From assembly GCA_017475035.1 (NCBI GenBank), contig JAFVGK010000053.1, positions 1-44,265 on the forward strand: a DNA stretch of 44,265 nucleotides, in the 5' to 3' direction. Both the position numbers and the translations under genes were made by a program. The DNA is from Blautia sp. (GTDB lineage Bacteria > Bacillota > Clostridia > Lachnospirales > Lachnospiraceae). This document shows positions 26,651 to 32,627 of this stretch, piece by piece. The notes beneath the pieces are model-generated. The model made no database searches. It saw only the letters and a list, made by a program, of their open reading frames with translations, and was not told the origin of the DNA. Position 1 is the stretch's first letter. Every line of letters starts with the position of its first letter.

Positions 26651-26750
26651 ACAGGGAATTGGTTTTCCTGCTGCGGCAGCCCAACTGCCGAAGCGAAAAA
26701 TCGTCATCCAAAGACGTTGCGTCAACGTACAAAACTGCGTTTATGGAGGA
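26651..26750 (+). repeat. Family B hairpin element, copy B3
   Basis: The first hairpin pairs 26661-26679 with 26685-26702 (CTGCCGAAGCGAAAAATC). The second is ACGTTG-CGT-CAACGT (26714-26728), where both sides differ from copy B1 (ACATTG, CAATGT) by a compensating A-T to G-C exchange. The tail AACTGCGTTTATGGAGGA leads to the next gene 20 bp later. Confidence 0.8.
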
Positions 26751-28948: not shown

Positions 28949-29800
28949 TCAAATCTCTCCGTGGAAAACTTCCGTCGCGGGTCCTGTCATAAAGACCTGG
29001 TTTTGTTCCTGATTCCATTCGATCTGAAGATCTCCGCCCAAGAGTTTGACGGTAATGGGTTTGCTGCTGTCAGTCTTTCCGTTCAGGATGCAGGCTACGG
29101 CAACGGCGCAGGCGCCTGTGCCGCAGGCAAGGGTTTCGCCGGAGCCCCTTTCCCATACCCGCATACGGACGGTATGGCTGTCAAGGACTTCGACAAATTC
29201 CGTGTTTACGCGGTCCGGAAAAGCCGGGTGATGCTCAAACTTCGGTCCGATTACGGGCAGCGCCAGATCCTTTACCCGGTCAACAAAGATGACAGCGTGA
29301 GGATTGCCCATGGATACGGCAGTAATCTCAAAAACCTGTCCATCCACTTCAAGAGGAGCGTTGATAATCCTTGCGTCCTCCTTTTTGGAAAACCAGGAAG
29401 AAATGACCGGTATATATTTTGCTTCCAGGATGGGGCTTCCCATATTTACAGTAGCCATTACGGCTTTTCCGTTTTCAATCGTAAGGTCTATTTTTTTGAT
29501 TCCGCTTCCGGTCAGAACAGACAATGTCGGTTTATGAACAATACCATGGTCATAGGCGTATTTAGCCACACATCGTACGCCGTTCCCGCACATCGCGCCT
29601 GAAGAGCCGTCAGCATTGTACATCTCCATCTCACAATCCGCCTGATCGGTCGGTTTGATCAGGATCAGCCCGTCTGATCCGATGCCAAAATGCCGGTCGC
29701 TGATTTCTATGGCAGTCCTGGAAGGATTTTCCACTGTCTCCTGAAAACAGTCTACATATACATAATCGTTTCCGATGCCGTGCATTTTTGTAAATTTCAT
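28949..29800 (-). CDS. dapF: Diaminopimelate epimerase
   Basis: DapF converts LL- to meso-diaminopimelate for lysine and peptidoglycan without a cofactor, using two cysteines. Both are present: MCGNGVRCVAKY (residues near 73) and ETLACGTGACA (near 225). The N-terminus MKFTKMHGIGNDYVYVD and the GNPHAVIFV block are typical, and the length (283 aa) is normal. AAAGGA precedes the ATG on the minus strand. It is a single-gene unit facing away from the amino-acid ABC transporter. Confidence 0.95.
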   Translation of the reverse strand: MKFTKMHGIGNDYVYVDCFQETVENPSRTAIEISDRHFGIGSDGLILIKPTDQADCEMEMYNADGSSGAMCGNGVRCVAKYAYDHGIVHKPTLSVLTGSGIKKIDLTIENGKAVMATVNMGSPILEAKYIPVISSWFSKKEDARIINAPLEVDGQVFEITAVSMGNPHAVIFVDRVKDLALPVIGPKFEHHPAFPDRVNTEFVEVLDSHTVRMRVWERGSGETLACGTGACAVAVACILNGKTDSSKPITVKLLGGDLQIEWNQEQNQVFMTGPATEVFHGEI

Positions 29801-30193: not shown

Positions 30194-30255
30194 AAATTTT
30201 GATCTCTGTGGCGTTTGGACAACATGAGAGCCACAGATGGACAGGAGGAATCAAT

Positions 30256-31062
30256 ATGAAAAAAAGCAAACTTCTTACAGCTCTTGCAGCAGCTGCGATG
30301 GCAGCGATGATGACAGTCTCCTGCGTATATGCAGAGGAAAATTCCAGCGGGATCAACGGCGTGGATGACCTTCCGGGAAAAAAGATCGGTGTCCAGCTGG
30401 GAACCACCGGCGATATCTATGCTTCCGACTATGAGGGCGATGAGGCCGGCACTGTCGTAGAAAGATACAATAAAGGAAATGACGCCGTCCTCGCTCTGAA
30501 GCAGGGGAAGGTGGACTGTGTGATTATTGACAGTCAGCCTGCGGCAAAATTCGTGGAGAAAAACGATGACCTGATGATACTTGAAGAGGATTTTGCTCTT
30601 GAGGAATATGCCATCGCGATCTCAAAGGATCGTCCGGAGCTGACGGAAGCGATTAATGGCGCGCTTGCAGAGCTGAAGGAAGAAGGCACCCTCGACCAGA
30701 TCGTCGGCAATTACATCGGCGATGATACCAAGGGTACACAGCCGTACGAGTCTCCTGAGGATGTCGACCGCTCCAACGGCAAGCTTGTCATGGCGACAAA
30801 TGCCGCGTTTGAGCCTTATGAGTACTATAACGGAACCACCATCGTCGGCATCGATGCAGAGATGGCTCAGGCGATCTGTGATAAGCTTGGCTATGAGCTG
30901 GAGATTCAGGATATCGAATTTGACGCCATTATCAACGCGGTTCAGTCCGGTAAGGCTGACATCGGCGTTGCCGGCATGACCGTCACAGAGGATCGTCTGA
31001 AAAACATCGATTTCTCTGATCCTTATACGACAGCGACCCAGGTGATCATCGTCAGGAAATAA
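30256..31062 (+). CDS. Amino-acid ABC transporter binding protein with circularly permuted SBP_bac_3 fold
   Basis: Extracellular receptor for a polar amino acid feeding the permease and ATPase downstream. Residues 1-26 are a signal peptide ending VYA; no clear lipobox. The two halves of the family appear in swapped order. Residues ~33-155 (VDDLPGKKIGVQLGTTGD ... EEYAIAISKDRPEL ... LKEEGTLDQIVGNYIG) are what is normally the C-terminal half. After a ~19-residue linker, residues ~175-268 (KLVMATNAAFEPYEYY ... FDAIINAVQSGKADIG ... MTVTEDRLKNIDFSDPY ... VIIVRK) are what is normally the mature N-terminus. The protein stops exactly at the usual hinge. Length (268 aa) equals a normal family member, so nothing is missing. 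ATG 30256 has AGGAGGAA six bases before it. Confidence 0.9.
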   Translation: MKKSKLLTALAAAAMAAMMTVSCVYAEENSSGINGVDDLPGKKIGVQLGTTGDIYASDYEGDEAGTVVERYNKGNDAVLALKQGKVDCVIIDSQPAAKFVEKNDDLMILEEDFALEEYAIAISKDRPELTEAINGALAELKEEGTLDQIVGNYIGDDTKGTQPYESPEDVDRSNGKLVMATNAAFEPYEYYNGTTIVGIDAEMAQAICDKLGYELEIQDIEFDAIINAVQSGKADIGVAGMTVTEDRLKNIDFSDPYTTATQVIIVRK

Positions 31063-31089
31063 AGAAAATTCCCACAGAGGATAAAAAAG

Positions 31090-31155
31090 AAAGCTGCCTG
31101 CGCAGTTCTGCAACCAGGGTGCTGTATTCCCGGAGCAGAATGTGAAGGCAGCTTT
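31090..31155 (+). terminator. Intra-operon hairpin between binding protein and permease
   Basis: AAAGCTGCCT (31090-31099) pairs with AGGCAGCTTT (31146-31155), enclosing TTCTGC...GCAGAA and GGG...CCC. Only TTTTGCG follows, so it is a weak terminator or processing site. It could keep the binding protein transcript in excess over the permease. Confidence 0.6.
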
Positions 31156-31160
31156 TGCGT

Positions 31161-31194
31161 AGAGCCAACATACAAAACTTCATTATGGGAGGAG
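31161..31194 (+). repeat. Family B tail, copy B5, at the permease ribosome site
   Basis: CCAACATACAAAACTTC and ATTATGGGAGGAG match the last third of the family B element (compare 26722-26750 and 9441-9470). The first hairpin is absent or replaced by the 31090-31155 hairpin. Confidence 0.55.
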
Positions 31195-31204
31195 TGATCT
31201 CTGC

Positions 31205-31894
31205 TTGAGTTTTATAGAACAATTACGCTTTAACTTCCTGGAGAACAGCCGGTGGCAGTTTATTCTGACCGGTCTGAAGAATACACTGGTTATTTCCCTT
31301 TTTGCCGTGATCGTGGGAATTATATTAGGTTTTCTGATTGCCGTTGTGAGAGCGACCCATGATAAATCCGGAAAATTACCTATCCTGAATTTTTTATGCA
31401 GGGTTTATCTTACCGTGATTCGCGGGACGCCCATGATGGTGCAGCTGCTGATCGTTTACTATGTCATTTTCGCGTCGGTAAATATCGATAAGGTTTTGGT
31501 GGCAGTGATCGCCTTTGGGTTAAATTCCGCCGCTTACGTGGCAGAGATCATCCGTTCCGGCATCATGTCCATTGACGAAGGGCAGACGGAAGCAGGCAGA
31601 AGCCTGGGACTTGGCTTTACTCAGACCATGTGGCTCATCATCATGCCTCAGGCACTGAAAAATGTTCTTCCTGCCTTGGGCAATGAGTTTATCGTTCTTT
31701 TGAAGGAAACATCCATCAGCGGGTATATCGGCCTGATGGATCTGACCAGAGGCGGTGACATTATTCGAAGCCAGACTTACGGGGCTTTGTTCCCTCTGCT
31801 TGCGGTAGCCGCGATTTACCTGGTCCTGGTCTGCTTTTTGTCCTTCCTGGTGGATCGTCTGGAAAGGAGGATGAGAGTCAGTGAGCGTAGATAA
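31205..31894 (+). CDS. Amino-acid ABC transporter permease (HisM/GlnP type)
   Basis: The 229-aa protein has five membrane spans and the family EAA loop [27 protein letters not shown] that contacts the ATPase, followed by [19 protein letters not shown]. Initiation is at TTG 31205 with GGAGGAG about 10 bases upstream. It overlaps the ATPase start by 14 bases. With a single permease gene, the transporter would use a homodimer. Confidence 0.93.
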
Positions 31895-32627
31895 AAGCAA
31901 GGTTTTAATAGAAGTACAGGGATTGGAAAAATCCTTTGGTGACAACAGAGTGCTGCGTGGAATCAGTACGGACATTTATCAGGGAGAGGTTGTCGTGATC
32001 ATAGGTCCGTCAGGTTCCGGAAAATCTACATTTCTTCGTTCCCTGAATCTTCTCGAAATGCCTACAGGCGGCCGGGTTCTGTTTGAAGGAACGGATATCA
32101 CGGATAAAAAAGTCGATATCAATCTGCATCGCCGCAAGATCGGCATGGTTTTTCAGCAATTCAATCTGTTCCCCTTAAAGACGGTAAGGGAAAACATTAC
32201 GTTAGCTCCCGTCCATCTGAAGGTGATGACAAAGGATCAGGCAAATAAACGGGCAGATGAGCTTCTTGCAAGGATCGGACTTCCTGATAAAGCCAACAGC
32301 TATCCGGATCAGTTATCAGGAGGACAAAAGCAGAGAGTTGCGATCGCCAGAGCTCTGGCTATGAGCCCTGACGTGATGCTGTTTGACGAGCCGACCTCTG
32401 CCCTTGACCCCGAAATGGTCGGTGAGGTTCTGGAAATCATGAAAGAACTCGCCGAAAGCGGAATGACCATGGTTGTTGTCACGCATGAGATGGGTTTTGC
32501 ACGCGAGGTCGGTACAAGAGTTGTCTTTATTGATGAAGGAGTCATCATGGAAGAAAATACGCCGGAAGAGTTCTTTGGGAATCCGCAGAATCCCAGACTG
32601 AAGGATTTTCTTTCAAAAGTGCTGTGA
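31881..32627 (+). CDS. Amino-acid ABC transporter ATPase (GlnQ/HisP type)
   Basis: The 248-aa ATPase has Walker [11 protein letters not shown]-loop [10 protein letters not shown], signature LSGGQKQR, Walker B VMLFDEP and the H-loop VVVTHEM, all intact, and the typical C-terminal [18 protein letters not shown]. The GTG start at 31881 lies inside the permease end, with AGGAGG 12 bases upstream. It energises uptake of the amino acid bound by the permuted receptor. Confidence 0.95.

Follow-up and report, generated by a model that had tools for sequence, protein, structure and literature searches.

A predicted natural circular permutation in an SBP_bac_3 binding protein of Blautia sp. and its recurrence among related bacteria

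A binding-protein gene with swapped segment order

The window analysed here, i.e., the whole stretch of 44,265 nucleotides from a contig (JAFVGK010000053.1) of the gut bacterium Blautia sp., carries a gene for a substrate-binding protein (SBP) of the SBP_bac_3 family, accompanied by the amino-acid type ATP-binding cassette (ABC) permease and ATPase that mark this kind of system (Table 1). Its open reading frame starts with ATG and encodes a protein with a signal-peptide-like N-terminus. The sequence family, the lobes, the ligand motifs, and the permease and ATPase partners are common to the window protein and to GlnH, HisJ, LAO-BP, and T. maritima ArgBP. However, ordinary SBP_bac_3 proteins run from lobe 1 to lobe 2 and back to lobe 1, with both termini in lobe 1, whereas the window protein begins and ends in lobe 2. 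We consider it very likely that the gene encodes a working natural circular permutant, which would bind a polar amino acid and serve the downstream permease and ATPase.

Table 1. Features of the transporter locus, in positions of the window
Feature	Positions	Strand	Basis
Circularly permuted SBP_bac_3 gene, 268 aa, order lobe 2 - lobe 1 (C part) - linker - lobe 1 (N part)	30256..31062	+	profile and sequence searches
Shine-Dalgarno AGGAGG	30243..30248	+	read directly
Signal peptide, residues ~1-26; signal-peptidase site between VYA and EE, or weak lipobox TVSC	30256..30333	+	read from sequence
Lobe 2, residues 33-106 (DLPGKKIGVQLGTTGD ... CVIID), in the usual layout after hinge 1	30352..30573	+	
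Last lobe-2 strand, hinge-2 strand (114-122), and lobe 1 C-terminal helices; residues 107-155	30574..30720	+	
New linker between the old C- and N-termini, residues 156-174	30721..30777	+	alignment of 65 sequences
Lobe 1 N-terminal part, hinge 1, and first lobe-2 strand, residues 175-268 (KLVMATNAAF ... VIIVRK), usually first	30778..31059	+	
Terminator-like hairpin between binding protein and permease	31089..31156	+	z = -2.97 for 142-base stretch
One copy of the dispersed 27-base motif, which has a ribosome site at its end	31166..31192	+	
Amino-acid ABC permease, BPD_transp_1; HEQRo 3TM domain above cut-off	31205..31894	+	
ABC ATPase, GlnQ/TcyN-like; its 319.9 bits do not reach the GlnQ cut-off (379)	31881..32627	+	

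The Pfam profile PF00497 matches the window protein with 124.3 bits (gathering cut-off 26.4) in two stretches, residues 177-268 corresponding to profile positions 1-92 and the upstream stretch 30511-30720 to positions 97-131. With TIGR01096, the lysine/arginine/ornithine SBP subfamily, residues 24-154 align to model positions 114-250, i.e., to the C-terminal part of the model; the score of 130.2 bits is below the curated cut-off (256.35), which does not decide the specificity because the permutation alone reduces a whole-length score. Among the alignments listed by phmmer against the PDB, four of five consist of two pieces in swapped order, the fifth being a single piece that spans the junction of the GlnPQ tandem chain (6h30). 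We also built a 224-position profile from ordinary-order SBPs and used it to read the segment order. Its positions 96-224 fall on residues 28-154 and its positions 2-97 on residues 174-268, and the two pieces together cover positions 2-224 of 224, i.e., all parts of the SBP_bac_3 domain. Once rotated, the window protein matches this profile in a single piece over positions 2-224 with 272 bits, and an ordinary SBP artificially cut at the equivalent place gave, as a control, the identical two-piece pattern. Complete coverage by two pieces, joined to a single-piece match after rotation, means that nothing is missing and excludes chance. Each half separately matches 53 of 55 ordinary-order SBPs, the N-type half preceding the C-type half in 53/53, and the scores of the two halves are correlated across these proteins (rho 0.66). 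Since both halves match the same ordinary proteins with correlated scores, they point to a single parent. Judged from these matches, the permutation is complete, clean, and derived from one parent.

The original prediction had placed the second half first and the first half last, both complete, with a linker of about 19 residues between the old termini. The two-piece matches and the rotation bear out this arrangement, the halves aligning to PF00497 in swapped and not in ordinary order, and the comparison of 65 sequences confirms the linker, in which G160 is invariant and D156, T158, K159, P163, Y164, and P167 are conserved in at least 90%. As the usual linear order of the family, which the Pfam cut-off does not demand, is replaced by lobe 2-lobe 1, we file the window protein as a permuted SBP_bac_3 subfamily, homologous to the ordinary proteins but different in topology.

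An AlphaFold prediction, proposed originally as a check, gave a confident fold (pLDDT 87.7, pTM 0.79, with residues 31-268 in blocks of 83-98). The model matches type II binding proteins; the structural aligners used were sequential and do not score a change of connectivity, hence the status of permutant rests on the sequence evidence. In Foldseek, the best E-value belongs to a match that spans the junction of the GlnPQ SBD1-SBD2 tandem, with a TM-score of only 0.30, and the matches include PDB 9L8J, which has "evolutionary hotspot" in its title. The GlnPQ pair (6H30) displays the same lobe 2-C-A junction as the window protein, but across two domains, and, unlike the window protein, it is made of two complete ordinary domains in tandem. 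No permuted single-domain SBP_bac_3 was found in the PDB among the best 60 of 291 and the best 60 of 391 matched sequences, in which only the best stretch of the GlnPQ tandem spans the junction.

The lobe borders used for the window protein were taken from GlnH, whose hinge we take to be residues 85-89; mapped from the GlnH numbers, the hinges would lie at profile positions 86-90 and about 184-188. In the alignment with 1GGG, residues 175-266 of the query correspond to residues 3-94 of the chain, which places hinge 1 of the window protein at 257-261, and AlphaFold draws one strand at residues 258-267. The chain had been thought to stop exactly at the hinge strand; instead, it crosses the hinge and ends after the next strand. 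With these assumed borders, the new termini are in lobe 2, directly past the strand following hinge 1. Lobe 1 is now one continuous stretch, lobe 2 carries both ends and with them the anchor (signal or lipid), and the chain still crosses at both hinges.

Recurrence, conservation, and neighbouring sequences

From a scan of 84,980 species genomes, which gave 236 related stretches, we retained the best 80. In all 80 retained loci, the window protein aligns in a single piece (start no later than residue 38, end no earlier than residue 266, 64-89% identity), so that the search for other proteins with the same half order, advised in the original prediction, found it throughout. Among these loci (numbered L in our lists, as genomes are numbered G and families f) are a complete genome (L078, AP025576.1) and the named isolates L056, L062, and L082. 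Named strains with the swapped order are Roseburia hominis An869, Parasporobacterium paucivorans DSM 15970, and Eisenbergiella porci. The swapped order had been presented as a departure from all familiar SBP_bac_3 proteins; it is in fact common in the bacterial family of the window.

Two of the 80 loci carry the gene fused to the permease and two lie at a contig edge; in the other 76, the permease comes next in 76/76, and the ATPase was also seen in 69 of these 76 assessable loci. With the same neighbour test, no ATPase was found after the two permease-fused genes. A simple lipobox pattern is matched by 55/80 relatives. In L009, about 200 residues of Ala/Glu/Thr-rich repeats separate the lipobox from the permuted SBP domain, and shorter Ala/Glu/Thr-rich linkers occur in several relatives (e.g., L024, L029, L032, L067, and L078).

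The dN/dS ratios of the gene against L004, L005, and L006 are 0.034, 0.048, and 0.056 (with saturated dS). Six residues (T50, T51, D92, F185, T242, and R247) are invariant in the 65 aligned sequences, and we take them, from GlnH and LAO-BP, to be amino-acid contacts. In SBP_bac_3 proteins, the ligand is held by an Arg for the carboxylate and an Asp for the amino group, and both conserved ligand residues are present here as the invariant R247 and D92. The gene does retain its signal peptide, permease, and ATPase, as had been claimed, and the further claim that it is probably functional is supported, as a predicted function, by purifying selection and conservation. Concerning the substrate, all the matched NCBIfam specificity models score under their cut-offs, and the search for a riboswitch or T-box as a clue gave no match to an Rfam family at gathering score, either in the window or in 16 of the 80 retained loci.

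The hairpin that precedes the permease gene possibly yields an excess of binding protein over permease. The dispersed 27-base motif (CAACRTACAAAACTTCRTTNNGGGAGG) ends in a Shine-Dalgarno sequence and, at the two places read, sits just upstream of a permease start, namely before the permease gene of the window and at L003, the locus of another SBP of this genome described below. A second window copy lies at 26723-26749, and the genome holds 103 copies at no more than 2 mismatches, against 0 for the reversed control; the exact 14-base core is absent from 241 other loci, 235 of them from other genomes. On the minus strand, a dapF-like gene (28949-29800), which by its motif is presumably a diaminopimelate epimerase gene, is transcribed away from the transporter.

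Other permuted types and their origins

The genome of the window encodes a second permuted SBP (L003, G000:C184, 49313-50134), whose chain begins with the last strand of lobe 2 and also has its end in that lobe, i.e., its order is C-A-M versus M-C-A in the window protein, with the cut before hinge 2. It adjoins a permease 32% identical to that of the window. Its closest same-order homologue, L093, is 74-75% identical, and three proteins of ordinary order (L094, L095, and L096) are 64-69% identical to L003 over the N-part and lobe 2, versus 43-52% over the C-part (51-65% over shorter spans).

To survey the bacterial family of the window, we searched 250 of its genomes with a profile built on the C-to-A junction. 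Full junction spans were found in 78/250, with the window type in 52, the second type in 27, and both in one, which is the window's own genome; left out of this count were G604 (a partial match in a 388-aa frame), G080 (a partial span, with the permuted fusion L228), and G591 (an ordinary triple tandem). The 83 loci L146-L228 were classified into 39 unfused 12CA, 17 permease-fused 12CA, 24 CA12 or CA2, one triple ordinary tandem with permease, and two that were incomplete in segment hits. In the phylum, full junction spans occurred in 13/398 genomes, four of the window's family and nine of three other families, and all 13 were confirmed; the long-frame rows G517, G441, G283, and G529 were left out. 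C-to-A junctions fused to a permease were also observed in L143 (G283:C29), L145 (G192:C32), and L228 (G080:C13). L143 consists of two permuted units (12CA-12CA-P), L145 reads A12CA-P at a contig end, and L143 and L228 form in the tree a branch apart from the window clade. The triple tandem L195 (G591:C2) is a 973-aa frame in which three very similar ordinary-order SBP domains are fused to a permease.

In profile numbers, the window-type cut falls at 97/98, the second piece ending at 97 in 93 of the 112 MCA-labelled domains (including the four of family f22), and the second-type cut at about 172/173-176. Further cuts elsewhere in the phylum fall at 108/109-111 (f22) and 125/134-136 (f77). All four cut positions found belong to lobe 2 and lie between the hinges as placed from GlnH, a result behind which there is an ascertainment bias, the junction search being less sensitive to cuts in lobe 1. 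As the cuts are between the hinges, both lobe crossings remain; cuts inside the hinges, leaving a single lobe crossing, were considered and rejected because every profile cut position is between them. In f77, the cut of L133-L135 falls behind the GTTGD helix, inside lobe 2, which gives the order 2-C-A-1; these proteins group with L124, which is cut on the hinge-1 side, and possibly represent a second shift of the cut site.

A first tree was made with 109 rows chosen from 219 distinct domains, and a careful tree with 83 rotated domains. Between the two, 26 rows were dropped for thinning; L002, an extra open reading frame of L079, L227, L226, L222, a duplicate L228 row, and the second of the L156 genes were removed as long branches, wrong frames, or duplicates; and the units added were three from L195 and two each from L143 and L144, MCAP and 2CA1 being counted as MCA. 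The main window group (26 rows) has a support of 99/97, and L003 and L093 fall inside a 100/100 clade with the standard-order L094-L096. The number of changes required is three for the hinge-2-side rows, both in this tree and over the 5-95% range of 200 bootstrap trees, and four for the hinge-1-side rows, three of them forced by starred branches; the permuted rows were sought deliberately and are thus over-represented, and these counts cannot separate gain from loss. In the approximately unbiased (AU) test, a single clade of all hinge-2-side rows was rejected (p 3e-6), while it was not once L003 and L093 were removed (p 0.229). A single clade gave p 0.056 for all hinge-1-side rows and p 0.528 for the 31 such rows of the window's bacterial family. 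It is safe to count at least three permutation events, one each for the window type, for the main second type, and for L003/L093. At least in part, SBP_bac_3 permutants other than the window type, with cuts ahead of hinge 2 or at two additional positions of lobe 2, had origins of their own.

The window type has close counterparts of ordinary order. After rotation, the window protein reaches up to 64% identity with proteins of its family that have the ordinary order (64.2% over 215 columns for L247), and the permeases in short loci of close standard-order SBPs are 53-71% identical to that of the window in 20 of 20 fetched loci. A close ordinary-order SBP was recorded in 63/250 genomes, 22 of which were fetched and checked and the others judged by the query range of the row. 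None of the 52 window-type genomes is among these 63 (Fisher p 4.4e-8, not corrected for ancestry), and for the second type the number is 2 of 27 (p 0.03). For the window type, the lack of co-occurrence and the similar permeases fit a replacement, and its protein probably replaced an ordinary-order protein within the same transporter. The original prediction had proposed a tandem duplication followed by loss of the outer halves. This route is plausible, and a tandem (L195) does exist among the near ordinary relatives, but no remnants of lost outer parts were found beside the window gene, L003, or L093, the tblastn hits outside genes all having E of at least 0.4.

Precedents, rival explanations, and meaning

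Natural permutation in other binding-protein families and engineered permutation in SBP_bac_3 are already known. TpMglB-2 (Tp0684), designated "Type Ic", is a natural circular permutant that binds its ligand and changes conformation, and its relatives occur in treponemes and gut Gram-positives; its authors see the permuted topology as possibly an adaptation to anchoring (PMC4990184). It has a type I sugar-binding fold, permuted inside one lobe with a fourth crossing added, and its family is unrelated to that of the window protein, for which the Pfam families reaching E 0.001 were SBP_bac_3, Phosphonate-bd, and Lig_chan-Glu_bd only, with no type I sugar-binding family. A natural permutation is also described between the glycine-betaine-binding proteins OpuAC and ProX (CPSARST paper, PMC2395249); these belong to another family with another ligand, and the two orders occur in divergent proteins of 14% identity, unlike the close relatives found here. 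Within SBP_bac_3, the engineered cpLAO-BP had its old termini joined by (GGS)4 and one inter-lobe linker cut and, flanked by fluorescent proteins, binds lysine with a Kd of 107 uM, about 36-fold weaker (PMC5087393, citing Okada 2009). It was man-made for Förster resonance energy transfer (FRET) sensors, whereas the window protein is natural, is cut on the lobe-2 side, and has a conserved 19-residue linker. Since cpLAO-BP still binds lysine, the permuted topology is workable. Among the papers listed by full-text literature searches, with subscription papers mostly outside their coverage, there was no report of a naturally permuted SBP_bac_3. What sets the window case apart is how frequent the permutation is, that it comes with several cut sites, and that close counterparts of ordinary order exist.

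In a working permutant, the lobes would close on a polar amino acid like those of an ordinary type II Venus flytrap, and the protein would dock on, and deliver its ligand to, a permease of the kind that ordinary-order proteins use. The permutation would have had a single origin in the ancestor of the window-type group, most likely through a tandem gene copy whose outer parts were then lost, and the permuted protein would have taken the place of the ordinary-order one in the same transporter. A misjoining of two ordinary-gene fragments during assembly or binning might be suspected in a genome of 200 contigs. However, the same order recurs in the 80/80 retained loci of independent assemblies, including the complete genome and the named strains, and is therefore not an assembly join; with the purifying selection on the gene, the probability of such an artefact is negligible. 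It is also very unlikely that the gene is decaying or neofunctionalised, the fold being kept and amino-acid binding lost: dN/dS is 0.03-0.06, the permease is retained, and the six presumed ligand contacts do not vary.

The chains could also complete each other's lobes in a lobe- or segment-swapped dimer, the permutation being an adaptation to swapping or a relic of it. T. maritima ArgBP, a high-scoring solved relative, forms a swapped dimer. Segment swapping and dimer formation were also seen with a permuted half of a type I ribose-binding protein (PMC9815098). On the other hand, the single-chain AlphaFold model is confident, the 19-residue linker could close the chain, and the gene is paired with a permease as in ordinary SBPs, and we hold a swapped dimer to be improbable. 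The permutant could also have been excised from a GlnPQ-like tandem array, the lobe-2/C part coming from copy 1 and the N part from copy 2, instead of arising by duplication of a single-domain gene. The Foldseek match across the GlnPQ junction goes in this direction, in spite of its low TM-score, as do the existing A12C-A12C-A12C-permease (L195) and 12CA-12CA-permease (L143) forms. Nevertheless, L195 groups with ordinary single-domain proteins and is not a sister of the permuted clade, and unfused 12CA genes outnumber the permease-fused ones among the classified loci; such an excision is unlikely, although it deserves serious consideration.

More broadly, the permutant of the window may be one of several natural permutations in the phylum made by cuts in lobe-2 loops that spare the hinges, which would have moved the termini and the membrane anchor out of lobe 1 into lobe 2 and replaced the ordinary counterpart in the same transporter. 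This would suggest selection for anchoring or docking geometry, and not a neutral accident, an idea that we advance tentatively, with slightly more doubt than belief.

As a rule, natural circular permutations come to light in comparisons of distant structures. In the present case, because permuted and ordinary relatives are up to 64% identical, have related permeases, and, for the window type, never co-occur, natural pairs make it possible to test the effects of moved termini on folding, hinge motion, anchoring, and transport. Several cut sites in a single family likewise make rules for tolerated permutations testable. In genome annotation with ordinary profiles, permuted SBPs show up as two partial hits. 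The idea of an adaptation to anchoring, taken from the work on TpMglB-2 (PMC4990184), can be tested in this family because so many of the relatives match the simple lipobox pattern. For biosensor design, in which relatives have been permuted manually and have lost affinity (PMC5087393), permuted SBPs are also natural scaffolds. In conclusion, the permuted versions with their differing cuts offer an experiment made by nature on the evolution and the movement of such proteins.
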